Of a DNA stretch of 64,000 bases, positions 1-61,047 are shown piece by piece (within the stretch, counting starts at the first letter, position 1; the number at the start of each line of letters is the position of its first letter). This DNA comes from Methylotuvimicrobium alcaliphilum 20Z. GTDB lineage: Bacteria; Pseudomonadota; Gammaproteobacteria; Methylococcales; Methylomonadaceae. The stretch covers positions 62,001-126,000 of the forward strand of contig NC_016108.1 of assembly GCF_000968535.2 (NCBI RefSeq), given 5' to 3'. Under the pieces are notes generated by a model, which was not told the origin of the DNA, ran no database searches, and was given only the letters and a program-made list of their open reading frames with translations. The translations under genes and the position numbers were made by a program.

Positions 1-2
1 TG

Positions 3-173
3 ATTGCTTGTTTTGACGATGGTGTAAACGAAGAGCTGGTCAAGGAGCTGGCTCGGTCCGAGGCTTTGCGTGTCGTATTCCGTGACAATGGTTTCGTGTC
101 TGATTCCGTAAAAATCAACGTCGAACAGATTTTCAAACAGTTGTCTCCGGGCACCGAAGTGAAATCAATTTAA
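3..173 (+). CDS. mod: Type III R-M modification (Mod) methyltransferase, C-terminal end only
   Basis: The open frame entering from the left edge encodes the last 56 residues, ending ...QLSPGTEVKSI, and stops at TAA 171-173. The segment ACFDDGVNEELVKEL followed by RVVFRDNGF and VEQIFKQLSPGTEV is the usual C-terminus of type III Mod adenine methyltransferases, which recognise the asymmetric site and methylate one strand. The catalytic part lies outside the window. The following res gene starts 12 nt after the stop and has its own strong ribosome-binding site (AGGAGG), the normal mod-res arrangement. The call rests on this tail and on the linked res gene. Confidence 0.8.
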   Translation: MACFDDGVNEELVKELARSEALRVVFRDNGFVSDSVKINVEQIFKQLSPGTEVKSI

Positions 174-185
174 GGAGGGCTTGGC

Positions 186-3100
186 ATGAAACTGAAGTTC
201 AAAGTCCAGCCCTACCAAACTAGTGCCGTCGAATCAGTGATTAACTGCTTTGCAGGGCAAGCAAATACCTCTGGCATTGTTTACCGGATCGATCCTGGTA
301 TTGATAAAAAAGCCTTAAAAAAAGGAGCCTATTTACCGGGCATGGAGCCTGAAATAGTATCTGGCTTCAAAAACGCTGACATACAACTGACAGACGCGCA
401 GTTGATTGAAAACATACAAGCCGCGCAGCAACGGCAAAATCTGAACATCTCTCAATCTCTCGATGAATTTTTTGATATGAAAGGCACGCCCATGCCTGCA
501 TCATATAAACCTGGATGTAAGGTCAATCTCGACATTGAAATGGAAACCGGAACAGGCAAGACCTACTGCTATATCAAGACCATCTTTGAGATGAATAAGC
601 AGTACGGTTGGACCAAGTTCATTGTTGTGGTGCCTAGCATTGCCATCCGAGAGGGCGTGTTTAAATCTCTTAAAATTACTGCCGAGCACTTCACCGAAAG
701 TTATGGGAAGAAAATTCGATTTTTCATATACAACTCTAAACAGCTCCATCAATTGGAGAGCTTCTCGTCCGATGCCGGCATCAATGTCATGGTTATCAAT
801 ATCCAAGCATTCAACGCCAAAGGAGCCGATGCTAGACGTATCTATGGCACGCCTAAAAAAATGCCAAATGGAAAAGAAGAGCTTGTGGGGCTCGATGATT
901 TTCAATCTCGAAAGCCTATAGACGTCATTAGCGCTAACCGTCCAATTCTCATTCTGGACGAACCGCAGAAGATGGGTGATAAGACGCGTGAATCACTAAA
1001 AGATTTTAAGCCGCTGATGATTTTGCGCTATTCGGCGACACACAGTACTACACATAACAAGATTCATCGACTCGATGCCCTGGACGCCTACAATCAGAAG
1101 CTGGTGAAGAAGATTGCCGTTCGCGGCATTGCCATGAAGGGACTGGCCGGTACTAATGCCTATCTCTATTTGGAGTCCATCGAGATTTCCAAAAAGGCTC
1201 CGGTAGTTCGCCTTGAGATGGAGGTTCGCCAGGGCGGCGGCATCAAACGGATTGTGAAGCGCCTGGAAAAGGGAAAGGATTTGTTCGTTGAGTCAAACGA
1301 ACTCGATCAATATCGCGGCTTTGTTATTGCTCAGATCGACGCCAACAAAGACACTGTTGAATTCACCAATGGTCATGTACTGAGTGCTGGTGACGCAACC
1401 GGTGACGTAACCGAGATGGCAATCCGTCGAATTCAGATTCGTGAGGCAATCAAAGCCCACTTCGAGAAGGAACAGCGCCTCTTTGCACAGGGAATTAAGG
1501 TCTTGTCTCTATTTTTCATTGATGAAGTGGTTAAGTACCGGGATTACAGCCAGGCCGATGAGCAGGGGGAATATGCCCGAATTTTTGAAGAAGAGTACGA
1601 GCAACTTAAGGCAGAATATTTAGGCGAGCTTGCCCTTGATAACGAGGGCTACAGAAAATACCTGACCGATATTCAGGTTCGTCGCACACACAATGGTTAC
1701 TTTTCCATTGATAAAAAGACAAAGAAACTCACCGATCCCGGTTTCAAAACACGTGGTGAAGATGCCGGGCTATCGGATGATGTCGATGCCTATGACCTGA
1801 TTCTCAAGGATAAAGAACGGCTATTGTCCTTTGAAGAGCCGGTTCGGTTTATCTTCTCCCATTCTGCTCTGCGCGAAGGTTGGGATAACCCCAACGTTTT
1901 TGTGATGTGCATGCTTAAGCATAGCGATAACACAATTTCTCGTCGCCAAGAGGTAGGCCGAGGCCTCAGGCTGTCTGTTAACCAACATGGCGACCGCATG
2001 GACCATCCCGCCACGGTTCACGATGTTAATATCCTGACCGTCGTGGCCAGCGAAAGTTATAAGGACTTCGTTACCAACCTACAACGGGAAATCAGCGACT
2101 CTCTTTCCGCTCGACCACGCAAAGCGGACGAAGCCTACTTCTCCGGCAAGGTCATTACCACCGAAACCGGCACTCTGGAAATATCCCCGGTTATGGCCAA
2201 GCAGATTTATAAGTACCTGGTGAAGAACGATTATACGGATGACGCTACCGACCAAGTTGTCGATGCCTATCATGAGGCCAAAGCCAATGGCACTTTAGCG
2301 GCGTTGCCTGCTGAGCTTGCGCCCTATGCGGATCAGATATTTGGGTTGGTTGATAGCGTATTCAGCGAGTCCCAACTTCCGGATGTTGGTGATGACCGCA
2401 AGCCGAAAACAAATCCTTTGAACGCCAACTTTGAGAAAAAGGAGTTTCAGGAGCTCTGGAGTCGTATAAACCAGAAAGCAATATATCGCGTTGAGTTTGA
2501 TTCAAGTGAGCTTATTCGTAACAGCATTCGTGTGCTGGACAAAGAGTTAAGAGTGACCCCTTTACAGTACACCATCCAGTCCGGCGAGCAGGTAGAGCAC
2601 GCCACGGCTGATCAATTAAAGGCTGGACAGGGCTTTGAGATCAGAGAAACGGTTACGGAAGAACATAATGCTTCTATTCACTCTATGGTCACATATGACC
2701 TGGTTGGAAAGATTGCCGAGAATACCCAGCTAACCCGCAAAACCATTGCTGAAATACTAGGTGGCATTCAATCGGTCGTATTCAAGCAGTTCAAGCAAAA
2801 CCCAGAACACTTTATTGCTGAAATTTCTCGTCTAATTAACGAACAAAAGGCAACGATTATTATCGAGCGCCTGAGCTATGACGGAATTGCCGAGAAGCAC
2901 GATGTCAGTATTTTCACCACCGGACAGAGTAAGCAGGACTTCTCCAAAGCCAGTGAAAAGCTGCGTAACCATATCTATGACTACGCGATTACTGACTCCA
3001 AAGTTGAGCGAGAATTCGTCACAGAACTGGATACAAGTTCCGAAGTCGTGGTTTACGCAAAACTCCCGCGTGGTTTCCTGATTCCAACACCCGTTGGTGA

Positions 3101-3341
3101 TTACAACCCTGACTGGGCTATTTCATTCAAGGAAGGTTCGGTTAAACATATTTACTTCGTAGCGGAAACCAAAGGTTCAATGTCCTCCATGGAGTTGCGG
3201 GCTATTGAGCATACGAAAATAGAATGTGCCCGCAAATTTTTTGAAGAGATCAATCGCAAGATCGAGCCAGAGAATGTTAAGTATGACGTCGTTACCAGTT
3301 ACGGGAAGTTGATGGAGATTGTCGGCAGGGCAGGGGCATGA
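186..3341 (+). CDS. res: Type III restriction endonuclease subunit (Res)
   Basis: The 1051-residue product is a superfamily 2 helicase/translocase fused to a C-terminal nuclease. Walker A is METGTGKT near residues 119-126, motif II is DEPQ near 258, motif III is YSATH, and the late helicase motifs are [15 protein letters not shown] and [11 protein letters not shown]. The C-terminus carries the PD-(D/E)XK nuclease signature: PDW near residue 975 and AETKG near 994. In type III systems Res joins Mod, uses ATP to scan DNA and cleaves when two head-to-head unmethylated sites are met. Length and motif order are typical, so the gene looks intact. Start ATG 186 is set by the AGGAGG site 7 nt upstream. 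Confidence 0.95.
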
Positions 3342-3408
3342 AACACCTCAGGAAGATGAGTATGACATATATACATCGACAGTTTGCTAGGATGAAAGGA
3401 GCGATGAA

Positions 3409-5517
3409 ATGAATATTGAAATTAAAAACTGTAACAACATTGATTTCGCCAAAATTTCTCTGTCCGAAAATAAACTAAATATCAAATTTGCCCCCAACGG
3501 CACAGGGAAGAGTTCAATTGCAAAAGCACTGCTGCTTGGCGTGGAGGGTAATCAAAGCCTGCTGAGCGAACTTATGCCGTTCAAACTTAGAAAGGAAAAT
3601 CCAGATAATAAACGGACGGAGATCAACGGGGCTGAGAATATCCAAAACATCATGTGCTTCAATGAAGAATATGTCAGTCAGTTTGTTTTCAAACCGGAAG
3701 AACTGGTCAGTAACAGCTTCGATATTTTCATCAGAACAGAGGCCTACAAAATGAAAGAGCAGGAAATAGAGGATTTGATACGCAATATCAAACAACTGTT
3801 TTCTGGAAATCAAGAATTGGAAGCCTTGATCGCCACTCTCAAGGAAATGGGAGATGCTTTCAAGCTGACCAAATCCGGCCTATCAAAATCGTCATCAGGC
3901 ATGAAAGGATTGTCTGAAGGTAACAAAATACAACACATTCCTTTCGGCCTGGAGTCTTATACACCGTTCATTCAGAGTCCAAACAGTGTGAGCTGGATTG
4001 ACTGGCAAACCAAGGGATACGATTTCGCGGAACTGTCTGACAATTGCCCCTTTTGTACATCGCATGCAGCCGACAAAAAGGATCAGATTAAAAAAGTCGG
4101 GAAGGAATATGACAAAAATACAATCAAGAATCTGATTAACATAATCGGTGTAATTGAAAAGCTTGGTGACTTCTTTTCTGCTGACGCCAAGGAAAAACTA
4201 GGAGCAATTACGAACCTGAAGGAAGGTCTTGAAAAAGAACACGAGGCATTTCTTACTTCGGTGAAAAGCCAAATCGATAACTTCTCCGAAAAGCTGGAAA
4301 AGCTCAGAACGCTTTCCGCGTTTCAATTCAAGGACGGTGAAAAAGTCGCCGAAAAACTACCTGCATACAAACTGGATTTGAAGTTTTTCTCAGAACTTAA
4401 TTCAGAAAAAATGCTGGAGGCCATCACTCCGATTAACGCCTCTATCGACGATGTTATCGAACAAGCCGGTCAACTTCAGGGTAAGATCAATCAGCAGCGA
4501 AACGAAATGAAAAAAACCGTAGAACGGCATCAGAACGCTATTAACGGCTTTCTTGCATATGCTGGTTACCGCTATCTAGTTGAGGTTGCAGGGGAAGGTG
4601 AACAATCTCAACTGAAACTCCGGCACGCCGATCACGAAGAACATCTCAGTGGCGGAAGCCAACACCTCAGTTTTGGCGAAAGAAACGCGTTTGCCATTGT
4701 TCTTTTCATGTTTGAGTGTCTGGCAAAAAAACCGGACTTGATCATCCTGGATGACCCAATTTCTTCTTTCGATAAAAATAAAAAGTACGCCATCCTCGAA
4801 ATGCTTTTCCGCCGTGATGCGGAATCATGTCTTAAAAACAAAACCGTTCTAATGCTGACTCATGATGTAGAGCCCATTATCGACACGGTCAAGTCTCTTT
4901 CTGATAAGTTCAGAAATCAAACATCGGCATCATTTCTAAAATTGTCATCAGGCCAAGTAAATGAATGCGGTATAGGCAAGGATGATATACAGACCTTTTC
5001 CCAAATCTGTAAGAATGCGCTCGCCTCTGACAAGGACGATGTCGTCAAGTTGATCTATCTGAGGCGCCATTTTGAAATTATTGACAACAAGGGTGATGCC
5101 TATCAGGTGTTGTCAAACCTTTTTCACAAAGGAAACTGCATGGGTCGTGGGGTTGATATGCGTGAACCGAAAGATTCAGAAGGCAACTACCCGGAAATGG
5201 AGCTTGCCAAGTTCGAAAGTGGTTGCACTGAAATATCGAACTATCTACAAGGCTTTTCATATTCTGATTTCTTGAATCGGGTCACTGACGTCAATGCCAT
5301 GAAGTCACTATATAGCGCTTCGGCGAATGGGTATGAAAAGCTTCAGATTTTTCGCTTGATGGATATAGATATTGAAAATTCTGTTATTCAGAAGTTTATC
5401 AATGAAACATACCATATTGAGAATGAGTTTATCTGCCAGCTTGATCCTGTAAAGTTTGACACAATTCCTGAATATGTCGTGTCCGAATGTGATCGGATTC
5501 TTCGGGGGATTCAATGA
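3409..5517 (+). CDS. SMC-like AAA_13 ATPase, RloC/PrrC-like putative RNase
   Basis: The 702-residue protein has an ABC/SMC-type ATPase split by a coiled-coil-like middle. Walker A is APNGTGKSS (residues 28-36), the signature is LSFGER (about 420), Walker B is LIILDDPISSFD (about 445) and the H-loop is LTHD. A CPFC motif near residue 213 sits in the charged middle segment, where RloC proteins carry a zinc hook. The C-terminal part reads YLRRHFE (R552...E556) then LFHKG (H573), an RX3E...H layout resembling the anticodon-nuclease triad of PrrC and RloC. The E-to-H spacing is shorter than in PrrC, so nuclease activity is an inference. PrrC/RloC enzymes are often linked to R-M loci and cut tRNA when restriction is disabled; the gene follows res by 67 nt with an AAAGGAG site. 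A generic AAA_13 defence ATPase is the alternative. Confidence 0.6.
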   Translation: MNIEIKNCNNIDFAKISLSENKLNIKFAPNGTGKSSIAKALLLGVEGNQSLLSELMPFKLRKENPDNKRTEINGAENIQNIMCFNEEYVSQFVFKPEELVSNSFDIFIRTEAYKMKEQEIEDLIRNIKQLFSGNQELEALIATLKEMGDAFKLTKSGLSKSSSGMKGLSEGNKIQHIPFGLESYTPFIQSPNSVSWIDWQTKGYDFAELSDNCPFCTSHAADKKDQIKKVGKEYDKNTIKNLINIIGVIEKLGDFFSADAKEKLGAITNLKEGLEKEHEAFLTSVKSQIDNFSEKLEKLRTLSAFQFKDGEKVAEKLPAYKLDLKFFSELNSEKMLEAITPINASIDDVIEQAGQLQGKINQQRNEMKKTVERHQNAINGFLAYAGYRYLVEVAGEGEQSQLKLRHADHEEHLSGGSQHLSFGERNAFAIVLFMFECLAKKPDLIILDDPISSFDKNKKYAILEMLFRRDAESCLKNKTVLMLTHDVEPIIDTVKSLSDKFRNQTSASFLKLSSGQVNECGIGKDDIQTFSQICKNALASDKDDVVKLIYLRRHFEIIDNKGDAYQVLSNLFHKGNCMGRGVDMREPKDSEGNYPEMELAKFESGCTEISNYLQGFSYSDFLNRVTDVNAMKSLYSASANGYEKLQIFRLMDIDIENSVIQKFINETYHIENEFICQLDPVKFDTIPEYVVSECDRILRGIQ

Positions 5518-5628
5518 AGCTAAGAACCAAGTAGAAAGATCCGGTGGATTTTCACTAATTCCCCAAGATATGTGCCTTAGATATTTGCTAAAAGTGTTAA
5601 TAATACTAATCCAAAAAACGTAATAACT

Positions 5629-6834
5629 ATGTCTCGCACTGCTGACTACACCATTCAAGGTTTTCTATACCAATTCAATAAAACGTTACTAGAAATCCTC
5701 AAGGCCCAGGACGACGCAGTAATAACGATAGAGGGAATTATCGAAGATATTGAGATTGGTGATAAAGATTTAATTACCGCAATTCAATGTAAGTACCACG
5801 AGTCGAATGAGACATATACGGTCAGCGCAATATATAAGCCTCTGCTGCAAATGATGCACCACTTCCACTTTTCCTCAGAGGGAAAGATCAACTATGTTCT
5901 ATTTGCGCACTTTCCTGGCCTGTCGGACAAAGAATTTGCTGTCGACAAGGCGGAACTCCAGAAAGCACTTTCATCCACAAATAAGGTTTACAAATCCTAC
6001 GTTGATGAGCTCAACGGCAAAATTGATTTGGATGCTTTTCTAAAGAAGTTTTCAACTAGTGTCGGGCCAGCTTTCGACGAACTTGTTAATGAGGCATATG
6101 GATTGCTGGAGGTTAATGGTATTTCCACCGATGATGTTAAAACATTAGCTTACCCTAACGCTATTCAACTAATAGCCAACCTGAGTATTCTGCACGATGC
6201 TGAGAAAAGAAAGATCACTAAGAGGGATTTCCTGTCTACGCTGCACCAAATCAAGACAACGGCCATTTCACAATGGACTCTTTCCTTAAAGACGCGGCAG
6301 TCCTTGCTTACCGCTCGCCGCAAACAACTAAAACCCAATCTCGCCAAAAACGCTCGCCTAAGATATTTTGTGCTTCACATTGACTCATTGAAGGAGTTCG
6401 AGACACAGGTTGTGATGTTTATCAGCGACTACCTCGAAAAATACCACTTCAAGCCCGCTCACTTGAAAACTCCTGTGTTTTGCCTCGATACATCAGAGGA
6501 GCAATTTAGAATGATTGAGCTACGCCTTTACCAGAAAGGGATCATAACTAACGACGGATACGTTGCTAACGTATTTGATGAAAGCCGGTTCCTTCGCGAT
6601 CCAATGACTAAAAAAGGTGATAACGGGGCAGTGGAGAGAGAGTTCAGTTTGCGCCTATTGCGGTGGTCTACTCCCGGGACCGTACTAAATAAAAGGAAGA
6701 GTGATGATCTCTTTGTGCTTGGTGCAGGTGGGTACGCTGGTTTGGATATTGAAGATGTCAATCTCGAAGAACTTGCTACGGATTCTTTTAACGAAATTAA
6801 ATACATGCTAGGACTAATTGATGTGTGCGAATAA
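5629..6834 (+). CDS. PD-(D/E)XK-type nuclease (DUF4297/Cap4-like) partner of HerA
   Basis: The N-terminus of this 401-residue protein reads YTIQGFLYQ, then EGIIEDIEI (E39, D40), then AIQCKYHE (Q53, K55). That E-D...QxK pattern after a GFxYQ opening is the one seen in Cap4/DUF4297-type endonuclease domains. The remainder is alpha-helical and unrecognised; it could be a sensor or an oligomerisation region. The gene overlaps the HerA ATPase gene by 14 nt, a strong sign of translational coupling and of a complex. Nuclease-HerA pairs are known anti-phage modules in which a HerA hexamer docks nuclease subunits. The start is ATG 5629 with only a weak ribosome site, after a 111-nt gap that could hold an internal promoter. 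The family assignment is by motif only. Confidence 0.6.
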   Translation: MSRTADYTIQGFLYQFNKTLLEILKAQDDAVITIEGIIEDIEIGDKDLITAIQCKYHESNETYTVSAIYKPLLQMMHHFHFSSEGKINYVLFAHFPGLSDKEFAVDKAELQKALSSTNKVYKSYVDELNGKIDLDAFLKKFSTSVGPAFDELVNEAYGLLEVNGISTDDVKTLAYPNAIQLIANLSILHDAEKRKITKRDFLSTLHQIKTTAISQWTLSLKTRQSLLTARRKQLKPNLAKNARLRYFVLHIDSLKEFETQVVMFISDYLEKYHFKPAHLKTPVFCLDTSEEQFRMIELRLYQKGIITNDGYVANVFDESRFLRDPMTKKGDNGAVEREFSLRLLRWSTPGTVLNKRKSDDLFVLGAGGYAGLDIEDVNLEELATDSFNEIKYMLGLIDVCE

Positions 6835-8587
6835 GGTTGGGAAAGTAATATCTTGTGCTCCAGAGGCAATCATCGTTGCAATTGATGACCTCGCCTTGTT
6901 CGAAGAGCACAAAAGCAGTTTGCAAGTTGGGCGTTTTCTTAAAATCGCGCAAGGCAATCATGATTTCACTATTGCCACAATACGTAACATAAAGGGAGTG
7001 TCTGTTGGCACGGATGGTTCGCCAAATTGGCAATTTCAAGTGGAGTGCCAGGCGATAGGTACACTTATCGACGACAAAAAATTCGATAGGGGAAGTTTGC
7101 TTCTACCTGTCCCAACTGAACACGCCTTTGTTGCTGACGAGGATACACTGGACAAGCTCTTCGCTACTGATGGGCAGCACGATTTCCCGTTGGGGCAGTT
7201 ATCAATGAATAAAGACATCAGTCTAAAGATTGATGGGAATCGTTTTTTCAGTAAACACATTGCTATCGTTGGTTCGACAGGTTCTGGCAAATCATGCACG
7301 GTTTCACGTATTTTGCATGATGTCGTTGGAATTGATGCCAAACAAAATACTAATTTGGGAAAACAAAATAACTCGCACATTGTAATCTTTGATGTTCACG
7401 ATGAGTACACAGCCTCATTTACTCTCGACAAGAATCAATCTTTCACACTAAACAGACTTGATATCGACACGCTCCGTCTGCCGTATTGGCTTATGAATTC
7501 AGAAGAACTGGAGAGTATGTTCATAGAAAGCAACGAGGCCAATTCCCACAATCAGGTCAGCCAATTCAAACACGCAGTTGTTCTCAACAAGGAAAAGCAT
7601 AACCCGTCAGTTACCGTAACCTACGACACACCAGTCTATTTTTCGATACAAGAGGTCTATAACTATATTGAGAACATGAATCGAGAAGTTATCGGTCGTC
7701 TTGACGGTGAAGACAAACCGAAACTGTCTGATGGGACACTTGTGACGGATCGAAAGGATTTCTACTTTGAAAAAATTTGTTCATTTGTAGCTTCTTCTAC
7801 TGCAAATGCAACGAGGGCAACTAATGGGCCATTCAACGGCGAGTTCAATCGGTTCACATCTCGACTCGAAGCCAAACTAAATGATAAACGGCTAAACTTT
7901 CTGTTAAAAGCAACAAAAGCAGATAAAAGCCCTTATAAAACGGAGGACTTCGAATCGCTGCTGAAGCAATTCTTGGGGTACCTCGACACGTCGAATGTCA
8001 CCATCGTTGACTTGAGTGGCATCCCGTTCGAAGTGCTGAGCATCACCGTCAGTTTGGTCTCAAGGCTGATTTTCGACTTCTGTTTTCACTACTCCAAACT
8101 ACGCCACGCCAAAAGCGAACTAAACGACATCCCTGTCATGCTTGTTTGCGAAGAAGCCCATAACTATGTGCCACGTCATAACGACTCGGCCTATCGGGCC
8201 TCAAGAAAGTCGTTAGAACGAATCGCAAAAGAGGGAAGAAAGTACGGATTAAGCCTCATGGTTGTGAGTCAACGGCCTTCAGAAGTGTCCGAGACTATCT
8301 TTGCACAGTGCAATAATTTTCTTTCGCTGAGACTCACCAATGATGCAGATCAAAATTACGTGCGCAGATTATTCCCTGACAATTCAAATGCAATAACTGA
8401 AATTTTGCCGAATTTGGCTCCAGGAGAATGCGTGGTGGTTGGAGATGCTGTGTTACTGCCAGCAGTAATTAAGATGCCTCTCCCTAATCCAGAACCACAT
8501 TCACAAAGTGTAAAAGTACATAAAGAATGGCAGGAAGCTTGGCGTGAAGTTACTTTTTCTGAGGTTATCGATCGTTGGCGGAAGTAG
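6821..8587 (+). CDS. herA: HerA-like hexameric ATPase / DNA translocase
   Basis: The product (about 588 residues) opens with a HAS-barrel-like segment (GKVISCAPEAIIVAI ... VGRFLKI). It continues with the FtsK/HerA-type ATPase: Walker A GSTGSGKS near residue 150, the characteristic VIFDVHDEY segment, Walker B VMLVCEEAHNY, and MVVSQRPSEVS (sensor Gln and Arg region). These match HerA rather than VirB4 or FtsK. HerA forms hexameric rings that move DNA for an associated nuclease. ATG 6821 is preferred over TTG 6818; either way it overlaps the end of the nuclease gene. Downstream is an Mre11/Rad50-like pair, the same partners HerA has in archaeal herA-nurA-mre11-rad50 clusters. Confidence 0.85.
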   Translation: MCANKVGKVISCAPEAIIVAIDDLALFEEHKSSLQVGRFLKIAQGNHDFTIATIRNIKGVSVGTDGSPNWQFQVECQAIGTLIDDKKFDRGSLLLPVPTEHAFVADEDTLDKLFATDGQHDFPLGQLSMNKDISLKIDGNRFFSKHIAIVGSTGSGKSCTVSRILHDVVGIDAKQNTNLGKQNNSHIVIFDVHDEYTASFTLDKNQSFTLNRLDIDTLRLPYWLMNSEELESMFIESNEANSHNQVSQFKHAVVLNKEKHNPSVTVTYDTPVYFSIQEVYNYIENMNREVIGRLDGEDKPKLSDGTLVTDRKDFYFEKICSFVASSTANATRATNGPFNGEFNRFTSRLEAKLNDKRLNFLLKATKADKSPYKTEDFESLLKQFLGYLDTSNVTIVDLSGIPFEVLSITVSLVSRLIFDFCFHYSKLRHAKSELNDIPVMLVCEEAHNYVPRHNDSAYRASRKSLERIAKEGRKYGLSLMVVSQRPSEVSETIFAQCNNFLSLRLTNDADQNYVRRLFPDNSNAITEILPNLAPGECVVVGDAVLLPAVIKMPLPNPEPHSQSVKVHKEWQEAWREVTFSEVIDRWRK

Positions 8588-8617
8588 TATGGAAAATGTA
8601 ATGAAAGGAAATGAGAA

Positions 8618-9874
8618 GTGAAATTCATACATGCTGCCGACATCCACTTGGATAGTCCTTTAACGGGATTAAGCGCTTATGCTGATGCTCCTGTGGAAAT
8701 GCTGCGCACGGCGACTCGCGACGCCTTTACCAACCTGGTTACCGAAGCAATTGAGCAACCGGTTGACTTCCTGGTGATTGCCGGAGATCTCTATGATGGC
8801 ACTTGGAAGGATCACAACACGGGTATTTATTTCTGTAAAGAAATGGGGCGCCTGAAGAAAGCCGGTATTCCGGTTTATCTTCTGTTCGGCAACCATGATG
8901 CCGAAAGTGAAATGACCAAGAAGTTGCAATTACCTGATAATGTCTTTGCCTTCGACACCCGCAAACCCAGCACTTTCTGCCTGAATGACCTAAAAGTTGC
9001 TCTGCATGGTCGTAGCTTTAAGGAAAAAGAGACCCTAGAGAACCTAGCGACAGGATATCCGGCTCCAGTGCCAGGCATGTTCAATATCGGTGTGTTGCAT
9101 ACAGCTCTTCAGGGCAACGCAGCTCACGCTACTTATGCGCCGTGTAGTTTGGATGAACTTCATGCTAAAGGCTACCACTACTGGGCATTAGGTCATGTGC
9201 ATGAACATCAAATTTGGGAAGGTGCTTCGACGGTTGTTTTCCCTGGCAACCTTCAGGGTCGTCATATCCGGGAGACCGGGCCGCGTGGAGCGGTTGTTGT
9301 GACTGCAGATGAGCATGGCATTCAGGACATCGAGCGCCTGTTCGTCGATGTCCTGCGCTGGACCAGTCTTGACGTCGATGCCACCGAGTGCAAAACGTTA
9401 TCCGAAGTAGTGGCCATCATCGGCAAAGAACTCGACGCAATTGTAGAAAACAGCCCATCTATCATTCCCACAGCGGTTAGAGTCACCGTCACCGGCAAAA
9501 CGGCCGCTCACGGCGAACTTTTCGGACTGGAGTCGCAACTGCGTGCCGAAGTCTTAGCCTTGGCGGTCGCCATGGGATCTGAGCGACTTTGGGTTGAAAA
9601 GGTTAAGGTGGCCACTTCGGCGGCAGATAATGGCGAGGAGGTTCGAGCCCGAGCCGATGCATTATCCGATTTGCAGGATCTGCTTCAGGCGGCTGAATCA
9701 GACGCTGACTTCCTGAAAAGCTTGCAAGATGAACTGCTGGGCTTGGTCAACAAGGCTCCCTTGGAATTGCAAACCACTGTCCCATACTTTAAGGCCATTC
9801 GATCTGGCGATCTGGTGGACTTGGTTCGCGAAGTTCGTCCCGGACTGGTGTCTCATTTAGCCAAAGCGGAGTAA
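8618..9874 (+). CDS. Mre11/SbcD-like metallophosphoesterase (YhaO family)
   Basis: The 418-residue protein starts at GTG 8618 behind AAGGAA. It carries the calcineurin-type phosphoesterase motifs of DNA-repair exonucleases in order: HAADIHLDSP, IAGDLYDG, LLFGNHD, GVLHTAL and LGHVHEHQ. These supply the two-metal site used to cut DNA ends. Its length and C-terminal helical region fit YhaO, the Mre11-like partner of YhaN. It begins 30 nt after herA and ends 7 nt before a YhaN-type ATPase, so the two most likely form an Mre11-Rad50-like complex. Classical sbcD is less likely because the partner is a YhaN-type rather than an SbcC-type ATPase. Confidence 0.85.
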   Translation: MKFIHAADIHLDSPLTGLSAYADAPVEMLRTATRDAFTNLVTEAIEQPVDFLVIAGDLYDGTWKDHNTGIYFCKEMGRLKKAGIPVYLLFGNHDAESEMTKKLQLPDNVFAFDTRKPSTFCLNDLKVALHGRSFKEKETLENLATGYPAPVPGMFNIGVLHTALQGNAAHATYAPCSLDELHAKGYHYWALGHVHEHQIWEGASTVVFPGNLQGRHIRETGPRGAVVVTADEHGIQDIERLFVDVLRWTSLDVDATECKTLSEVVAIIGKELDAIVENSPSIIPTAVRVTVTGKTAAHGELFGLESQLRAEVLALAVAMGSERLWVEKVKVATSAADNGEEVRARADALSDLQDLLQAAESDADFLKSLQDELLGLVNKAPLELQTTVPYFKAIRSGDLVDLVREVRPGLVSHLAKAE

Positions 9875-9881
9875 ACTGACG

Positions 9882-12800
9882 ATGCGCTTTCACCGCTTAG
9901 ACTTGATCAAGTACGGCAAATTCTCTGACCGCTCAGTTGAATTTCCAGTTGCCAAACAGGACTTTCATATGATTGTCGGGCCCAATGAGGCAGGCAAATC
10001 CACATTGCGATCCGCTATCGTTGATTTGTTGTTTGGTTTCCCTTTGCGTTCCGTCCATAGTTTCCTGCACCCGCTTAACGAATTGCGCTTAGGGGCTTAC
10101 ATTAGCAATGCAGCAGGCTCGCTTGAATTTCAGCGTGCTAAAGCGCAAAAACAAACCCTGCGCTCGCCGGTGGATGCCATCTTGTCTGATACTGAACTGA
10201 CACCATTCCTGGGGGCTGCAGATAGAAGCTTCTTTGATCAGATGTTTGGCCTTGACCATACGCGATTAGTTTCCGGCGGCAATAGCATTCTCAATGCAGA
10301 GAATGATGTGGGACAGATACTGTTTCAATCTGCGGCTGGTGTCGCCAGTCTTGGTAAGATTCGTGATGCGCTCGTCGCCGAAGCTGACAAGCTGTGGGCA
10401 CCTAGAAAATCCAATGACCGGGCTTATTACATCGCCTTAGACCAACTCGATAAGGCAACGACTGCTTTGAAAGAAGCCACTGTTCGGACCAAGGTCTGGG
10501 TGGAGGCCAATAGTAAAGTCGAATCTCTGCAAGAATCGTTAAGCAATGAGCGTGAACGACACCAGAAACTCCAAAGCCAGCGTAACCGTCTTGAGCGCAT
10601 TCGTAGGCTTGCTCCGTTTTTGATGACCCTGAGAGATAACGAACAGAAATTGGTTGAAGTGATAGAGTTGCCGGCAGATGCCGCAACCATTCTCGCTGCC
10701 GCAGAACGAGAGCTCGCTATCGCCGCTGAACGCCTGGAAATGCGCAATAGTGAGGTTAAAAAAATCACTGAAGCGCTATCAAAAATCGATGTTGACCAGA
10801 CCCTACTTGATCGCGCTGCCGACATAACCAAACTAGATAACCTTCGCCTTCAATACAGCGCTTATGAAGGCGATATCGCCAATCGAAAAAATGAAATAGC
10901 GGCACTTTGGCGAGCGGTTGGTAATGCCTGCACCCAGCTGGGTTGGGCTCCAGACTCTGAAAGCGCAATTGTCCAGCGACTGCCGACACTGCTAGTGCGG
11001 CGCGAACTCAGGCAATTGGTCCGCGACCGTGGCGGGATTATTCAGACATTACGGGCTGCAGAACAGGCCGAAAAGAACAAAGATTCTGAAATCGAAGCAC
11101 TGTCGAAGCAACTGGCTGATTTGCAGATGGGAGACGTTAAACCTGCTCTACGTGCAGCATTAGCAAACGCCAAATCATTTGGTGATACTGAACGGGCGAA
11201 CCAAAAGCTACAGACTACGCTGACTAAAGCAAAATCAGCACTGGAAGGTTATTTAACGGAGTTGGGCCAATGGCGCAAAACCTTGCCAGACTTAATGTCT
11301 CAACAACTGCCTAGTCAAGAAAAAGTTAACCAATTAATTCAAGAGCGTCAAACCCTTATTTCCGATCGGAAAGCTGAATCACTGCGGCTGAAAAATCAAA
11401 CAGCCGAGGTTGCCCGGATTGAATTGCTAATCGCTCAGTTTAAAGAGCTGCATCAAATTACGACTCTTGAGGCGGTGATCGAAGCTCGCACTGAACGTGA
11501 TGAATTGTGGGGTGGCATAAAAACGGGTGATATTGATCTGCAACTTGAAGGGCCTTCGTTTGAAAGGAAAATGGCCTACGCCGATCAAGTTGCCGATAGC
11601 AGGCTCGACGATGTTGAGGAGGCAACCGAACTTCAAAGCTTAATGCATCAGCTTGAACGGGAAAAACAGAACGTAACGCTGATTGAAGTTCAACTTTCAC
11701 AATTCAATGATGATCTTCAGCTATTCGACGACCGTTGGGCTCATGATACAGCAGGCATGGGTTTGGCTGGAATGGCCTTAGAAGATATTGGTGTCTGGAT
11801 GCTCAGGCGGGAGAAAGTGTTGTCTGCGGGTATTGCGTATCAAGATGCTCAGGATGAATTTGATTCATTTACCCGTTTAGTTGCAGATTCCCATCTCAAC
11901 CTCGTTAATGTATTAAAGGACACGAGGCTGGAAGTCAAAGAGACGGATGACTTGTCCGTTCTTTGCATTCAAGCAGAAAACTATATTCAAGCCATTGATA
12001 GCGCTAAAGTTCGTTATGACACTTTATCCGCCCAGTTGCGTGAAGCAAAGACACTTGCCGCCACACTAAAACAAGCTAAGGAGGATGCAAAGTCTGAGGA
12101 AAGCCGTTGGACTGAAATCTGGTCAACAACAGTTGCTAAGTTGGGATTAGCGCCTGACAGTGATATCGGCACGGTTGAAGGCGCTGTTGAGCTTATTGAA
12201 CAAGTAGCCGAAAAACTGGAGAAAATGCGGCAGATTCAAGTCGAGCGTATCGACACCATGAATGCTGACCTGAAGGCATTTTCTGTTGAAGCTGATCGAC
12301 TCGCACAAATTATTGCACCAGAAATCAATGGCCAATCAGCCGAGCAAATAGCATTAACATTAGCTAATCGCTTAACTCTCGCCCGCGAGGCTTTTACAGA
12401 AAGCAGTCGGCTAAAGGAATCACTACGTGTTGCAAGTAATCAGGTATTGGAAGCCCAAGAATCAATTCAAACAGCAATGGCGAGTTTGAAACCGTTAATG
12501 GATAAAGCGGGAGTCGATAACAATGCGTTGCTGGGTGAAGCAATTTGGCGGTCTGACGAGCAACGTCGCCTAAAGTCAGAAATGGCAGAATCTAACGCTA
12601 ATCTGCTTAACGGTGGTGATGGTCTGACTAGGGAGCAAATTGAAGCGGAGGTTGATGCGGCTGATCTAATTCAACTTACCAGCGATTTAGCGTACGTTAA
12701 TGATGAAATTTCTGAAGCTGTTCAGAAGCAATCAAATCTTTCGGCTGACCTTGCAAATGCCTTACGGGCTTTATCCGAAATCGGTGGGTCTGACGCTGCA

Positions 12801-13331
12801 ACCCAAGCAGAAGCAAAACGCCAAGAGGCGCTTGCACAAATGTCAGATGTTGCAGAACGGTATGTAAAAGTTTTTACCGCTGGGCGCTTGCTCCGTTGGT
12901 CTATTGACCGTTACCGAGAAGAGAAGCAAGGGCCTCTGTTACAACGTGCCGGGGCCATCTTTTCGACATTAACTTCCGGATCTTTTAGCAAGCTGATTGT
13001 GGATTTTGAACGAGAACCAATGGTCCTAGAGGGGCTACGCACCGATGGCATGATGGTTGGTATCTCTGGTATGAGTGACGGTACACGAGATCAGCTTTAC
13101 TTGGCACTTAGATTGGCAGCCCTGGAAATGCACTTGGAACAAGCCATGCCGCTACCCTTTATCGCTGACGATTTATTTATTAACTACGATGATGTCCGAT
13201 CAAAAGCCGGGTTTGAAGCGCTTAAAGCATTGTCCGAACAGACCCAAGTCATCTTCCTTAGCCACCACGACCACTTGATCCCAACGGTTCAAGATGTTTT
13301 TGGCGGTCAGGTGAATGTTGTGTTCTTGTGA
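9882..13331 (+). CDS. Rad50/SbcC-like SMC ATPase (YhaN family)
   Basis: The 1149-residue protein begins MRFHRLDLIKYGKFSD and has Walker A GPNEAGKST near residues 34-42. Long charged, heptad-rich stretches predicting coiled coils occupy about 170-1000. The C-terminal ATPase half has GMSDGTRDQLYLALR (signature), PFIADDLFINYDD (Walker B/D-loop) and IFLSHHDHL (H-loop). This is the architecture of YhaN, a Rad50-like ATPase that tethers and opens DNA for its phosphoesterase. No CXXC zinc hook is visible in the coiled coil, unlike true Rad50/SbcC. It is the last gene of the run that begins with mod; the next gene is more than 500 nt away. Confidence 0.85.
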   Translation: MRFHRLDLIKYGKFSDRSVEFPVAKQDFHMIVGPNEAGKSTLRSAIVDLLFGFPLRSVHSFLHPLNELRLGAYISNAAGSLEFQRAKAQKQTLRSPVDAILSDTELTPFLGAADRSFFDQMFGLDHTRLVSGGNSILNAENDVGQILFQSAAGVASLGKIRDALVAEADKLWAPRKSNDRAYYIALDQLDKATTALKEATVRTKVWVEANSKVESLQESLSNERERHQKLQSQRNRLERIRRLAPFLMTLRDNEQKLVEVIELPADAATILAAAERELAIAAERLEMRNSEVKKITEALSKIDVDQTLLDRAADITKLDNLRLQYSAYEGDIANRKNEIAALWRAVGNACTQLGWAPDSESAIVQRLPTLLVRRELRQLVRDRGGIIQTLRAAEQAEKNKDSEIEALSKQLADLQMGDVKPALRAALANAKSFGDTERANQKLQTTLTKAKSALEGYLTELGQWRKTLPDLMSQQLPSQEKVNQLIQERQTLISDRKAESLRLKNQTAEVARIELLIAQFKELHQITTLEAVIEARTERDELWGGIKTGDIDLQLEGPSFERKMAYADQVADSRLDDVEEATELQSLMHQLEREKQNVTLIEVQLSQFNDDLQLFDDRWAHDTAGMGLAGMALEDIGVWMLRREKVLSAGIAYQDAQDEFDSFTRLVADSHLNLVNVLKDTRLEVKETDDLSVLCIQAENYIQAIDSAKVRYDTLSAQLREAKTLAATLKQAKEDAKSEESRWTEIWSTTVAKLGLAPDSDIGTVEGAVELIEQVAEKLEKMRQIQVERIDTMNADLKAFSVEADRLAQIIAPEINGQSAEQIALTLANRLTLAREAFTESSRLKESLRVASNQVLEAQESIQTAMASLKPLMDKAGVDNNALLGEAIWRSDEQRRLKSEMAESNANLLNGGDGLTREQIEAEVDAADLIQLTSDLAYVNDEISEAVQKQSNLSADLANALRALSEIGGSDAATQAEAKRQEALAQMSDVAERYVKVFTAGRLLRWSIDRYREEKQGPLLQRAGAIFSTLTSGSFSKLIVDFEREPMVLEGLRTDGMMVGISGMSDGTRDQLYLALRLAALEMHLEQAMPLPFIADDLFINYDDVRSKAGFEALKALSEQTQVIFLSHHDHLIPTVQDVFGGQVNVVFL

Positions 13332-13350
13332 CCTGGAATCTGCTGGTAAT

Positions 13351-13367
13351 GAGCATACTCCATGCTC
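13351..13367 (+). terminator. Weak hairpin after the YhaN-like gene
   Basis: GAGCAT-ACTCC-ATGCTC forms a 6-bp stem with a 5-nt loop 19 nt after the stop codon. There is no clear T-run after it, so termination is only a possibility. Confidence 0.25.
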
Positions 13368-13502
13368 TCTAAGAATCATTATAATTGTCTATGTGCCGGG
13401 GACAATGCGAGCAGTTTTGAAAAACTCTGTGCGGTAATTTTGCACACTGGAATCTGTGAGAAGTCAGTGGGGTAACTGGCTGTTCCCCCTCGATTATATT
13501 CG

Positions 13503-13600
13503 ACCTTAAAACTCGGACTATCTTCCGGTCGACTATGCCTTTTATCGTACAGCCGAGTGGTCGATATATTCGCTTGGTCTATCAATTCCTGAATCCTCTC
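13503..13600 (-). pseudogene. 3'-end remnant of a XerC/D-type tyrosine recombinase
   Basis: The minus-strand reading contains [19 protein letters not shown], nearly the same as the C-terminus ([19 protein letters not shown]) of the intact recombinase at 28548-29516. The DNA of 13503-13564 differs from the intact gene at about two positions in 62. The rest of the gene, including the catalytic Arg and His motifs, is absent. The remnant and the intact gene share orientation, so they are direct repeats about 15 kb apart, perhaps old element borders. Confidence 0.75.
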
Positions 13601-14510: not shown

Positions 14511-14548
14511 TACCGGGTTGCTTAAGTTACGGGACGAGGGTTCGCAAC

Positions 14549-14971
14549 CGACCCCTATGTGTAGTTCGAAACTATGTGTAAATTGTTAATACGACCTGGA
14601 AGAAAGATAGAATTCACCTGGGTTATGGCCAATATGAGAAAACCTTAGGTTCACATAGTTTTATCGGTGTCTTGAAGTAAAAATTTCAGTGACATCAGGA
14701 ATTCTAGTCAATCGTATCCGACACTACTCAATAAGTTGGCTATTTGAGAGCCAATTAGCACCCTACCTCGAGATTTCCTGACTATCGCGATGCATGAAAA
14801 AGTCGGAATTAACAATGGGCTGATATTACCCAACCGATCGCAAGTTGATGCTACTTCTTCAAGCATTGAAATTATGTGAAGTTGCGTTCGACCTTATGCG
14901 ACGGACACCAAGGTCTAATCCTCAATGTAAATTTGCAACTCCACATAGTTTCGAACTACACATAGGGGTCG
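14549..14971. mobile_element. MITE-like non-coding element with 30-bp inverted ends
   Basis: Positions 14549-14578 and 14942-14971 are perfect 30-bp inverted repeats, beginning CGACCCCTATGTG on the left. The 363 nt between them have no convincing ORF. The layout fits a miniature inverted-repeat element or a structured RNA locus. No clear target duplication was seen next to the ends. The whole 14443-15170 stretch is otherwise free of genes. Confidence 0.5.
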
Positions 14972-14997
14972 CTATGTTGAGCTTAACATAGCGACCC
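14966..14997. repeat. Strong hairpin at the right end of the inverted-repeat element
   Basis: GGGTCGCTATGTT (14966-14978), loop GAGCTT, and AACATAGCGACCC (14985-14997) make a perfect 13-bp stem. It overlaps the last bases of the 30-bp repeat. It lacks a T-run and could be a bidirectional terminator or part of the element end. Confidence 0.6.
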
Positions 14998-15170
14998 GAA
15001 GCAGACGTTCGACCAATAACCTTGATACCCCCTTTGATATGATACCTGGGATAAAGTTAACGACTTCCGGCGTTATTCTCCATTTGTCTGTTTAACAGGC
15101 TTGTCATAGTTATCTGGTAGATTTTGTACTGGTATGGATAAATGAATCTACTTGGCAAAGGTAAAATATA

Positions 15171-16184
15171 ATGAAATTATGGAAAACAGAGTGCATTGAA
15201 ATAAATTTATTCATAAGCATGAAGCATTTTAAAGTCGCAGTTATAACTGCATGGCTTATCATGGCTGCAGGCAATGCAGGTGCAATAACACTCTGTGCAG
15301 TTCCATGTGGTGTTAATACTGAAACTCGGAATTATTCTTATAATGGCTATCTAAGCGACCTCACAGTCGCATCATCACAGACGTTGCCATTTAGCCTTGA
15401 AGAATTCTATGGCGCCCTGAATCTGACTCCTGATTCACCTGTACCAGTTAGCCTGTCTTTAACCGTGAAGAGATCTGAAGAGTTTTTAGGTAGTAGTATT
15501 CTGGCGAGAGGGCATGATTATTGGTACTCAATGAATCTCGGTAACTTATCTATTCGCGGCTCAATTCTAGGTAACAACACATTCGGAATTTCTTCATATG
15601 CGGTTTCCCCGTTCAAAAATGATCACGATAATGGCAGCAGTATTGTTGATGAGCTATATATATTCGATACTGACTACAAAGCAACCGTCACTAATCAAAA
15701 TATCGAATTAACTTCAAGAGAAAGAGCGAATACGCCGGGGTGGAACTCATTTTTTCAGGACTGGTTTAGCTTTCGTTTGGAAGATTATATGGCTGCTGGT
15801 CTAGACGGAGACTTCCCTGGTGATGGTAGTTTGTTGGAGACAATGTTTGATAGTGGTAAGTTTGCACTTTTTGGCGACATCCAGGTAACTGACGATAATG
15901 GCACGGTTCTTTCTCCATTTTCTGATAGCGAAAGATTCCTCCTTAACGGAACGATTGATTCTTCTCAGGTATCCTTTCAGCCTACAACAGAACAGATGGC
16001 TACAGTATGTACAAATCTTTTATTATGTGGTGGTGGTGGTTCTGTTTCTCTTACTCCTGTTGTCCCATCAGTGCCCGTGCCGAGTGCAGTGTGGTTCTTT
16101 GGTTCTGGCCTGATTGGAATAATTGGATTGGCTAGACGACAGAAAGAGGGAAATCGGGGACAGGTCTTTCAATCAAGCATGTAG
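15171..16184 (+). CDS. PEP-CTERM (exosortase-target) exported protein
   Basis: The protein ends PVPSAVWFFGSGLIGIIGLARR, i.e. a VPxPSAVW motif, one hydrophobic helix and a basic cluster: the PEP-CTERM sorting tail of gammaproteobacteria. It should be exported, processed by an exosortase and released or anchored at the surface. A signal peptide begins at Met17 (MKHFKVAVITAWLIMAAG...AGA), so translation may begin at ATG 15219; ATG 15171 has the better ribosome site (AAAGG). The central 250 residues have no recognised domain. The tail here continues 14 residues past the basic cluster (...GNRGQVFQSSM), longer than usual. The exosortase gene is not in the window. Confidence 0.8.
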   Translation: MKLWKTECIEINLFISMKHFKVAVITAWLIMAAGNAGAITLCAVPCGVNTETRNYSYNGYLSDLTVASSQTLPFSLEEFYGALNLTPDSPVPVSLSLTVKRSEEFLGSSILARGHDYWYSMNLGNLSIRGSILGNNTFGISSYAVSPFKNDHDNGSSIVDELYIFDTDYKATVTNQNIELTSRERANTPGWNSFFQDWFSFRLEDYMAAGLDGDFPGDGSLLETMFDSGKFALFGDIQVTDDNGTVLSPFSDSERFLLNGTIDSSQVSFQPTTEQMATVCTNLLLCGGGGSVSLTPVVPSVPVPSAVWFFGSGLIGIIGLARRQKEGNRGQVFQSSM

Positions 16185-19264: not shown

Positions 19265-20155
19265 TTAATAAGCCTGCACGCCAAACTTCAACAACAATCG
19301 CGGCAAGATATCATCCAGATTAAGCACTTCGTCGTCGGTCAGCTCGATCAGGTTGAAGTTGTATTTCTTGTAAATGGCCTGTTTTTCTTCTTTACGAGCC
19401 AGGTATTTAGAATCGTTGTCATAGCCCCAGAACTCGATGTAAACCTTGCCGGTCGGAATATAGAAATCGCAATACATTTCCTCTTCGATCGGCAGCTTGC
19501 GCTCATAGGCATGAACGATCTCGGCCATGTACAGCCAATTATCGATCAGCATTTCCGCTTTCGACCGGACAAAGTGGCCGTCGGTCGCACGGTGCGTCGC
19601 CTCGAATTTGTGTCGGAAGCTATCCATCTTGTCGCTCTCGGTCTTCGGCTTATCGACGCCTTTAATGTTGTCGATGCTGTCTTTCAACGCTTTGACGTTC
19701 AGTATTTTTTCCGGCCACCGTACATAAGGAATACCGGAGCGTGAATCCTCGCCTTGCAGTGCGCCAAGCTTGGCGCCTTGGTCGGTGATCAGCCAGCCTT
19801 TCAGGCCTTTCTTGATCCAGCCCAGCTCCGAAAGTATGTAATTCATCTTATTGGCCGACAGCTCGAAATGCTTGCCGATCGCTGTCGCGGTAATGAGCTT
19901 GTCGTTCAAATTTCCCGCTAACGGCTCCGCTCCGGTAGTTTGACCAAAATCGACATCTTCCGGCCATGCCGCATACTGGCCGTATTTACCGTTCAAATGC
20001 ACGCCGCCCAAACGTTCGCCGGCTTCGGTCAATACCCATTGCTCCTTATCCCTTTTGAGTAACCCCCTCTCGCTCAATTGGGCGAACAATTCGTTCGAGG
20101 TCATTCCGCGTTTTTTGGCTAGTTTGGTCGTAGAGATCTTATTGACTTCGGTCAT
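19265..20155 (-). CDS. Restriction-like nuclease with N-terminal winged-helix repeats
   Basis: The 296-residue protein has two similar helix-turn-helix-like repeats, each ending in a hydrophobic strand (GLLKRDKEQWVLTEAGERLG and GWIKKGLKGWLITDQGAKLG). A C-terminal domain reads VRSKAEMLIDNWLY, then CDFYIPTGKVYIEFWG, then YNFNLIELTDDEV. The D...E spacing in the CDFYIP...YIEFWG segment fits a PD-(D/E)XK nuclease. It lies 55 nt downstream of a HelD-like helicase on the same strand, which itself carries the related segment QPDFYLPDYGIYIEHF. The two probably act together on DNA. Substrate unknown. Confidence 0.6.
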   Translation of the reverse strand: MTEVNKISTTKLAKKRGMTSNELFAQLSERGLLKRDKEQWVLTEAGERLGGVHLNGKYGQYAAWPEDVDFGQTTGAEPLAGNLNDKLITATAIGKHFELSANKMNYILSELGWIKKGLKGWLITDQGAKLGALQGEDSRSGIPYVRWPEKILNVKALKDSIDNIKGVDKPKTESDKMDSFRHKFEATHRATDGHFVRSKAEMLIDNWLYMAEIVHAYERKLPIEEEMYCDFYIPTGKVYIEFWGYDNDSKYLARKEEKQAIYKKYNFNLIELTDDEVLNLDDILPRLLLKFGVQAY

Positions 20156-20210
20156 CCTCGCCGCTCCTTTTTATCCGTTGGTAAATAATACTAATGTGTG
20201 AAATTGAAAA

Positions 20211-29516: not shown

Positions 29517-29668
29517 GCGGTTATACCTTATGTATAGGTGCAAATGAGGTAGGATTTTGGGGGCGTGTTTTTAGGTCCTATAAAATATATTATAGGACCT
29601 AAAGTGGGCGGAGCCAAAGCTAAAGCTTCGCTGACGTTTCCTTGGGAAAATGCCGCCGTCTATGCTAG

Positions 29669-51939: not shown

Positions 51940-52078
51940 CGGCCAGCCTCGCAGAGCAGGATGTCCGTTGAGTGCGTAGCGCGAATAAGGTCAGTGAAGC
52001 AGGAACATCCCGCTTGCGGGTGGGCCTACTTCACACATCCTGCCCTGTCCTAACGGACGGTTACGCCAAGAATAGGAG
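51940..52078. other. oriT: IncP-type origin of transfer (oriT)
   Basis: The stretch between traJ and traK repeats the RP4 oriT plan: GGCCAGCCTCGCAGAGCAGG, an inverted repeat GTCCGTT (51963-51969) / AACGGAC (52052-52058), GTGAAGCAGGAAC, the short hairpin CCCGC-TT-GCGGG (52009-52020), GGGCCTACTTCAC and the nick region CATCCTG|CCCTG with the nick expected after 52042. RP4 has CTATCCTG|CCCGG at the same place. The rest of 51909-52239 holds AT-rich DNA with two TATAAT-like hexamers (52155-52160, 52166-52171), possibly the traK promoter, without clear -35 boxes. Confidence 0.93.
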
Positions 52079-60809: not shown

Positions 60810-61047
60810 CGGGTCGTTGTTTAATGCTTTTAAAAATGTGCCGTCCGCCGTATTTTTTGTTTTTATCCTGCGGCAAATAGTTGCGGGTTTATGTCGGCGT
60901 TAACATAAGGACCGCTGCATCAATCAGGTACTTACGCCAAGCTGCTTATTTACCTCTTCTGCTGTCGACTAAATGGCAAGATTGCCACCCAGTGGTTAGT
61001 GGTAGTCCGTATTGCTGACACTCAAGAAGCGCTATAGGAATAAAATC

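Follow-up and report, generated by a model that had tools for sequence, protein, structure and literature searches.

Do seven genes that stand close together on one strand, each resembling a component of bacterial defence, make up a single system, or have several systems come to lie side by side? The question is raised by the first 13,331 bases of a 64,000-nucleotide (nt) stretch of Methylotuvimicrobium alcaliphilum 20Z, here called the window, which is bases 62001-126000 of a separate 128,415-bp contig (NC_016108.1; C1) in a genome of two contigs and 4.8 Mb. A first-pass annotation had seen in it seven co-oriented genes and proposed for them a joint logic as one system. The genes themselves are as it described: our list of open reading frames (ORFs) shows six complete genes and the 3′ end of mod, all on the + strand and separated by 12, 67, 111, -14, 30 and 7 nt, and scans with hidden Markov models (HMMs) bear out the component families (REase_III, PDC-S06, DUF4297, HerA, Metallophos and AAA_27). 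The single system is not supported. We consider it probable, with good confidence, that a plasmid-like molecule here carries a modular defence island made of at least four separately travelling units: a type III restriction-modification (R-M) unit (A), a PrrC/RloC-like ATPase (B), a DUF4297-HerA pair (C) and a YhaO-YhaN pair (D). The genes are as follows, in window coordinates unless C1 is given:

C1:56215-59487, upstream of the window, same run: SNF2 helicase (HMM scan)
C1:59493-60194, upstream of the window and before mod, same run: DUF4391 gene (DUF4391 229.4 bits)
C1:60191-62173, mostly outside the window, same run: full mod (MTase_III 764.5 bits)
1..173, + strand: 3′ end of mod, type III methyltransferase, stop codon at 171-173 (N6_N4_Mtase; DPPY motif)
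186..3341, + strand: res, type III restriction subunit with helicase and C-terminal endonuclease domain (REase_III 1109.1 bits)
3409..5517, + strand: PrrC/RloC-like ABC ATPase, S06 (PADLOC candidate PDC-S06, 986 bits)
5629..6834, + strand: DUF4297-type nuclease (DUF4297 146.7 bits; DUF4297-HerA structure matches)
6821..8587 (alternative TTG start at 6818), + strand: HerA translocase partner, overlapping the nuclease gene by 14 nt (HerA 573.6 bits)
8588..8617, + strand: junction of the HerA and YhaO modules (blastn edges at 8591 and 8604; relic match to window 8544-8597)
8618..9874, + strand: YhaO-like Mre11/SbcD-type phosphoesterase (Metallophos 51.9 bits)
9882..13331, + strand: YhaN-like Rad50/SMC-type ATPase, partner of YhaO (AAA_27 252.2 bits)

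The gene run extends beyond the start of the window with the SNF2 helicase, the DUF4391 gene and the full mod.

We read the locus as modular because its sub-modules are distributed independently and because DNA homology stops at cassette edges; the gene content, the module boundaries and the independent distribution are direct observations. We searched 66 nuclease-HerA rows, 20 Res loci and 69 YhaO-YhaN loci for relatives of the window's genes (E 1e-15). In none of them did two of the modules occur together, and the sole cross-match was a 23% identical SNF2-type helicase in a nuclease-HerA locus without Mod or Res (L027). These neighbourhoods reject the single-system reading. S06, nuclease, HerA, YhaO and YhaN were absent from all 20 Res loci (15 genome and 5 plasmid loci, some cut by contig ends), which came from 25 genomes with a Res match, the window's own included (15 of the other 24 were fetched, nearly all top scores), and from 264 plasmid records with a match, of which 5 were opened. 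Likewise, neither Res nor S06 nor YhaN occurred in any of 63 nuclease-HerA rows, equal to 62 distinct loci (L005 repeats L036; L005, L036 and L201 are one locus). L020 has a weak YhaO match (26%) on the opposite strand, 3 kb past HerA, which is gone at E 1e-15. The 69 YhaO-YhaN loci comprise 24 genome loci, 30 phylum-wide loci and 15 plasmid loci, the last being those opened among 239 plasmid records with a YhaN match (six with 4.5-kb flanks only); Mod, Res, DUF4391, nuclease, HerA and the window's S06 were found in none of them at the same threshold.

The joints were located by blastn of the window against all other collected loci. Bases 5622-8591 are homologous to a Gallionella nuclease-HerA locus, and the ends of this block are the cassette edges. 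Bases 8604-13331 are homologous to the Methylomonas koyamae plasmids pLM6 and pFW12EY and to genome G047, and bases 8604-13416 to a 5-Mb contig of the same-genus genome G004 (93.8% identity over 4823 bp). The common YhaO-YhaN DNA begins 14 bp before the start codon in four loci representing three contexts, and in three more distant loci (L190-L192) homology begins at 8617-8618. In pLM6 and pFW12EY the pair lies behind BREX (bacteriophage exclusion) genes, and the gap between brxL and yhaO holds a relic of about 50 bp of the 3′ end of herA (L068, about 15918-15970, in pLM6; L069, 11765-11813, in pFW12EY). The relics align with window 8544-8597 and 8544-8592, with scores of 52 and 53 where the best of 200 shuffles reached 31 and 30, and the pFW12EY copy reads IAFSDVIDRCRK-stop against VTFSEVIDRWRK-stop in the window's HerA. 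Six further YhaO loci were checked and showed no such relic, and within the plasmid collection the stretch was found in the pLM6 and pFW12EY records only. The simplest reading of these alignments is that their common ancestor had HerA in front of YhaO-YhaN and that BREX later took its place; the adjacency of HerA and YhaO would thus be old, with the upstream system exchanged. Downstream of the pair, pLM6 has an RloC-like ATPase gene and pFW12EY has GajA-GajB (Gabija; L069 16773-20242). YhaO-YhaN is thus the constant element between exchanged systems in both plasmids and the window.

Unit A has both parts of a type III R-M system, Mod with DPPY and Res with its helicase and C-terminal endonuclease domains (ResIII and RE_endonuc above the Pfam cut-offs; GTGKT and ETK motifs), and differs from the usual Mod-Res arrangement by the SNF2 helicase and DUF4391 gene placed before mod. 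These additions recur: a search of the 20 Res loci with the window genes at E 1e-15 found Mod in 19, the SNF2 helicase in 12 and DUF4391 in 8, and the helicase-DUF4391-Mod-Res core is seen again in L170-L173, L158, L159, L161, L162, L164 and L166, with the order permuted once (L159). Three of the five opened plasmid loci have other genes between the parts of this core, namely an ATP-dependent endonuclease and a DUF2130 protein in an Enterobacter plasmid, an ATP-binding protein and an AAA ATPase with DUF4276 in an Aeromonas plasmid, and an RNA-binding-domain protein in a Sulfitobacter plasmid. In type III restriction unmodified DNA is cut after translocation, which is established for the family. 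Unit A would be an extended version of it, in which Mod marks the cell's own DNA and Res translocates along and cuts unmodified DNA.

The nuclease and HerA of unit C had been taken for part of the archaeal end-resection set in a bacterial form, and here the evidence points elsewhere. The first 18 Foldseek matches of the 401-residue nuclease model are all DUF4297-HerA entries, including 9c1m, 8ziq and 8zir (predicted local distance difference test, pLDDT, 83.3; predicted template modelling score, pTM, 0.56), and a profile of 31 nuclease sequences matches 9c1m with an E-value of 7e-132, so that fold and sequence agree over the full length. D40, Q53 and K55 are invariant in all 31 sequences, the window's included. 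HerA matches 9c1m_M with an E-value of 4.1e-237 and has intact Walker A and B motifs. As these Foldseek and profile matches point to DUF4297-HerA, we rejected an archaeal HerA-NurA identity. The nuclease gene overlaps herA as in the DUF4297-HerA anti-phage system, and among the 63 rows herA adjoins the nuclease gene in 59, the exceptions (L031, L065, L066 and L067) being contig ends or partial nuclease matches. In sequence the window proteins are nearest to those of 9c1m and 8ziq and further from that of 8xav. They differ from the described systems in falling below both NCBIfam equivalog cut-offs (NF042945, 175.7 of 300 bits; NF042944, 622.2 of 850 bits), and because of this the pair, judged by sequence and model, is best called a divergent branch of the DUF4297-HerA type. 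For a relative, the available part of PMC11291478 gives a supramolecular assembly, cleavage of double-stranded DNA and ATP hydrolysis, with abortive-infection defence among the results. By analogy, unit C would be a nuclease-translocase assembly that cleaves double-stranded DNA, hydrolyses ATP and leads to abortive infection.

Unit B, the ATPase S06 (702 residues), matches the PADLOC model PDLC04889 (PDC-S06) with 986 bits across residues 1-699, a full-length match to what is a candidate family and not a proven system, and AAA_13 with 45.1 bits, above the cut-off; its structural model resembles SMC and Rad50 heads at modest confidence (Foldseek; pLDDT 69.5). RloC is described, in the available part of PMC2610378, by a zinc hook CX2C, a triad R-x3-E-x36-52-H and a size of 658-897 residues. 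S06 shares with RloC and PrrC the ABC/Rad50-like head, the CxxC zinc-hook motif, a length within the RloC range and the C-terminal R-x3-E, and all 12 sequences compared, the window's among them, have C213, C216, R552, E556 and H669 in common. It differs from RloC in the spacing of the catalytic histidine, which lies at the required distance in 2 of the 12 sequences, the window's not among them; the sole invariant histidine after E556 is H669, 113 positions further. We call S06 RloC-like, and not RloC, because the hook and the R-x3-E are present and the histidine spacing is not; full RloC membership is rejected on that ground, so that the label first given to the gene holds for the ATPase head and hook and fails for the spacing of the canonical triad. 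As a further relative we considered IbfA of IncI1 plasmids, which was rejected since IbfA, in the part of its description available, has 518 residues and a TOPRIM domain. Among the viral contigs, no stretch fits patterns built from S06 or YhaO.

Relatives of S06 occur in 907 plasmid records and, like RloC and PrrC, are linked to R-M in some loci. Of 13 other loci with usable flanks (L076 was too short), four have R-M genes beside the S06 relative: in L071 and L072, similar plasmid loci, it adjoins a cytosine methyltransferase and a type II endonuclease, and in L196 and L197 it immediately follows the R, M and S genes of a type I system. No R-M gene was recognised near it in the other nine (L120-L123 by annotation; L116, L117 and L198-L200 by ORF reading), with a plasmid DNA methylase 8 kb away in L120. 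PrrC is set free when its R-M partner is inhibited and RloC reacts to DNA damage or breaks, according to the portions of PMC3710099 and PMC12707154 that were available, and the same response of RloC to breaks appears in PMC3874168, likewise seen in part. Most likely, by analogy, unit B would be an abortive-infection RNase that becomes active only when restriction is blocked or when DNA ends are present, and the ATPase probably serves as a translation- or RNA-directed backup.

Unit D has the composition of Mre11-Rad50 or SbcCD, a phosphoesterase with the motifs DIH, GDLYD, GNHD and GHVH and a partner ABC ATPase with GPNEAGKS (P-loop), SDG, FIADD (Walker B) and SHH. The same kind of gene pair, phosphoesterase and AAA_27 ATPase, is found in YhaO-YhaN of B. 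subtilis. The window pair differs from SbcCD/Mre11-Rad50 in that YhaO is below the curated SbcD cut-off (51.5 of 77.65 bits), a motif check finds no CxxC (the Rad50 zinc hook) in YhaN, and the pair is a mobile cassette between defence systems. We named it YhaO-YhaN because the SbcD score and the zinc hook fall short, following the annotation of close relatives. PADLOC does not recognise YhaO, and for YhaN it returns no more than weak hits to LmuB and mad. YhaO is found at E <= 1e-50 in 29 of 239 genomes drawn from the phylum. In the close subfamily (YhaO at least 66% identical), six of nine loci, namely the window, pLM6, pFW12EY, G047, G871 and Paraburkholderia phymatum and not G004, G890 or G884, adjoin BREX, Gabija, TIR/DUF1016, KAP-NTPase, DUF3320 or nuclease-HerA genes. 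In G004 the pair lies downstream of glmS and the atp operon (names by ORF reading), and that genome has no match to the nuclease, S06 or Res. Some distant plasmid loci are near TIR, Fic, DarT, HipA or DUF4007 genes, and several are flanked by metabolic or maintenance genes. The yhaN of G047 is split into two ORFs (L189 6855-10318); this pair may be inactive, or the assembly wrong.

Genes for RloC-like ATPases (AAA_13/PDC-S06-type) recur beside this pair. They lie directly downstream of it on the same strand in pLM6, in G047 and in the plasmids of Rhizobium sp. TH2 and Roseibium, two alphaproteobacterial plasmids with the order YhaO-YhaN-ATPase. In G447 and G284 the ATPase gene lies immediately upstream of the pair, and in P. 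phymatum it is encoded on the opposite strand within 8 kb. PADLOC assigns the ATPases of 870, 869, 899 and 760 residues (pLM6, G047, G447 and G284) to PDC-S06 under models other than that of the window's S06. In a tblastn search run by a leave-one-out rule, as six of the seven query ATPases come from test loci, an RloC-like ATPase was found in 6 of 69 YhaO-YhaN loci (2/24 genome, 0/30 phylum-wide and 4/15 plasmid loci) and in none of the 86 control rows (p 0.0069, one-sided Fisher test). The control rows are 66 nuclease-HerA rows (64 loci) and 20 Res loci, and the p value includes the two rows that are repeats. G284 is an additional case, seen by PF13166 only. The 28 genomes with YhaO or YhaN have 12 AAA_13 matches, and 4 of these, counting the window's, are no more than 10 kb from YhaN. 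We treat this association as a lead and not as proof, since the loci are interrelated and defence genes cluster generally.

How far do these results bear on a joint function? In the reading as one seven-gene system, restriction would make ends, HerA-nuclease and YhaO/YhaN would degrade from them and the RloC-like protein would be the backup. Contiguity, common orientation, short gaps and the old HerA-YhaO adjacency speak for it, yet no other sampled locus has close relatives of two modules, the cassettes have boundaries and the sub-modules occur alone, and we consider it very improbable. What does survive of the proposed joint logic are weaker pairwise links, those between S06 and R-M and between RloC-like genes and YhaO-YhaN, and a HerA-YhaO junction older than the plasmid. 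The modular island, in turn, has several observations to contend with. Many sampled loci end at contig ends. GC (guanine plus cytosine) content varies somewhat among the modules (S06, nuclease and HerA 0.416-0.436, YhaO 0.517, YhaN 0.476, unit A 0.461-0.486), in favour of separate units, but the differences are small. All genes may form one transcript, given co-orientation, gaps of at most 111 nt and the lack of a terminator-like site in the gaps; the promoter and terminator scan is at the level of shuffled sequence (15 against 20.3 and 15 against 15.6), and none of the predicted sites falls in the gaps 3342-3408, 5518-5628 and 8588-8617. The excess of RloC-like genes beside YhaO-YhaN is a further such point, and the herA relic shows the association of units C and D to be older than one would expect had they been stacked here by chance. 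Within the modular island, units A-D would be parallel layers, possibly feeding DNA ends to one another, and not one complex; we infer every biochemical activity given for them here. That the four layers act in parallel is most likely, and a flow of ends between them is possible.

What unit D contributes divides the readings further. It would be an Mre11-Rad50-like pair that processes DNA ends, a mobile cassette carried beside different defence systems, and we infer that it defends rather than repairs. One alternative, a real possibility that we would still not call probable, is an ordinary DNA-repair pair hitchhiking on plasmids, perhaps for plasmid maintenance and unrelated to defence. The pair is indeed widespread, usually without a recognisable defence partner, and the metabolic or maintenance flanks of several plasmid loci and its place behind glmS and the atp operon in G004 fit this; the defence neighbours of the close subfamily, the TIR, Fic, DarT, HipA or DUF4007 genes near some distant plasmid loci and the sharing of the DNA as a precise cassette do not. 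More tentatively, YhaO-YhaN could be an unrecognised mobile defence module together with the RloC-like ATPase, where the pair processes invading ends and the ATPase senses ends or failure and stops translation. The adjacency in several lineages, the enrichment, the proximity of AAA_13 matches to YhaN and the response of RloC to DNA breaks (PMC3874168 and PMC12707154, as far as available) argue for it. Against it, this is a minority association, absent from the phylum-wide loci; the ATPases scanned span three PDC-S06 models, the window's differing from its counterparts'; defence islands commonly contain genes of both types; S06 and YhaO-YhaN are kept apart in the window by the 3 kb of nuclease-HerA; and PADLOC barely recognises the pair. 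A broader proposal, which we think rather unlikely as a whole, makes the YhaO-YhaN subfamily a mobile defence core with interchangeable partners (DUF4297-HerA or BREX upstream, RloC-like genes or Gabija downstream) and in several lineages a three-gene unit with a break-sensing RloC-like ATPase, which would turn the ends left by restriction or phage replication into a degradation substrate and an alarm.

Every module of the island can be placed in a family that is described or at least listed as a candidate, and defence islands as such are well known, for example the BREX and type IV restriction genes side by side on a resistance plasmid (PMC8565348, in the part available); the modules there are others, and here YhaO-YhaN stays while its neighbours are exchanged. 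New to us are the readable HerA-YhaO exchange, the extended type III core that includes DUF4391, and the fact that Alpha- and Gammaproteobacteria both have a YhaO-YhaN-RloC-like neighbourhood. A literature search of open-licence PMC papers, where absence is weak evidence, found, among the papers listed and judged by title or abstract, nothing on the exchange or the neighbourhood, and no paper on DUF4391 in an extended type III core, on YhaO-YhaN in phage defence or on an Mre11-Rad50-like pair beside BREX; the one paper that names DUF4391 treats a different topic, and a review of SMC-based immunity came up in the search on Mre11-Rad50 and BREX; the words YhaO, YhaN, Mre11 and SbcD are absent from the text of the BREX survey PMC12839542 as far as it was available. 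Defence islands are often put down to mere clustering, and at this locus one joint is legible down to the single base: one YhaO-YhaN cassette stands behind nuclease-HerA in the window and behind BREX in two plasmids, and the herA scar points to exchange. If YhaO-YhaN defends, a complex of the Mre11-Rad50 type, known for repair, joins the defence arsenal, and the RloC-like neighbour offers a testable link from DNA-end processing to translation shut-off; otherwise the locus still documents cleanly how modules are swapped around a neutral anchor. The candidate YhaO-YhaN defence module merits testing, in a locus of a known modular kind with an unusually readable joint.

We call the contig plasmid-like because its ORFs include readings as ParA/ParB, a relaxase and a coupling protein (by ORF reading, without a domain scan) and because it carries a traJ-II RNA motif (51945-52045, 90.2 bits), which adjoins ORFs resembling conjugation genes. 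This motif, far from the island, is the sole Rfam match in the window at gathering thresholds, and no tRNA was found within the window. A 455-bp repeat, 99% identical between its copies by blastn, lies at 14548-15002 and, inverted, at C1:51633-52087 (L002 5633-6087), about 24.5 kb apart with one copy on each side of the island. It has perfect 30-bp terminal inverted repeats (14549-14578 and 14942-14971) and resembles a miniature inverted-repeat transposable element; such an element could mobilise or invert the island. The 3′ end of a tyrosine recombinase gene (28548-29543; bases 28551-28648) is duplicated with 88% identity at 13496-13593, 165 bp behind yhaN, which suggests that recombination has left a scar at the island's right edge. 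By HMM scan the same molecule also encodes a candidate defence protein (PDC-S69) and, next to it, a UvrD-like helicase bearing topoisomerase zinc ribbons (19265-23171), as well as an IetA-IetS defence pair of an AAA ATPase and a subtilase-family protease (30493-33991). Two ORFs towards the window's end (61012-63453 and 63572-64000) we take to be a phosphoketolase and a fructose-bisphosphate aldolase, which would place sugar-phosphate metabolism on the plasmid-like contig as well.

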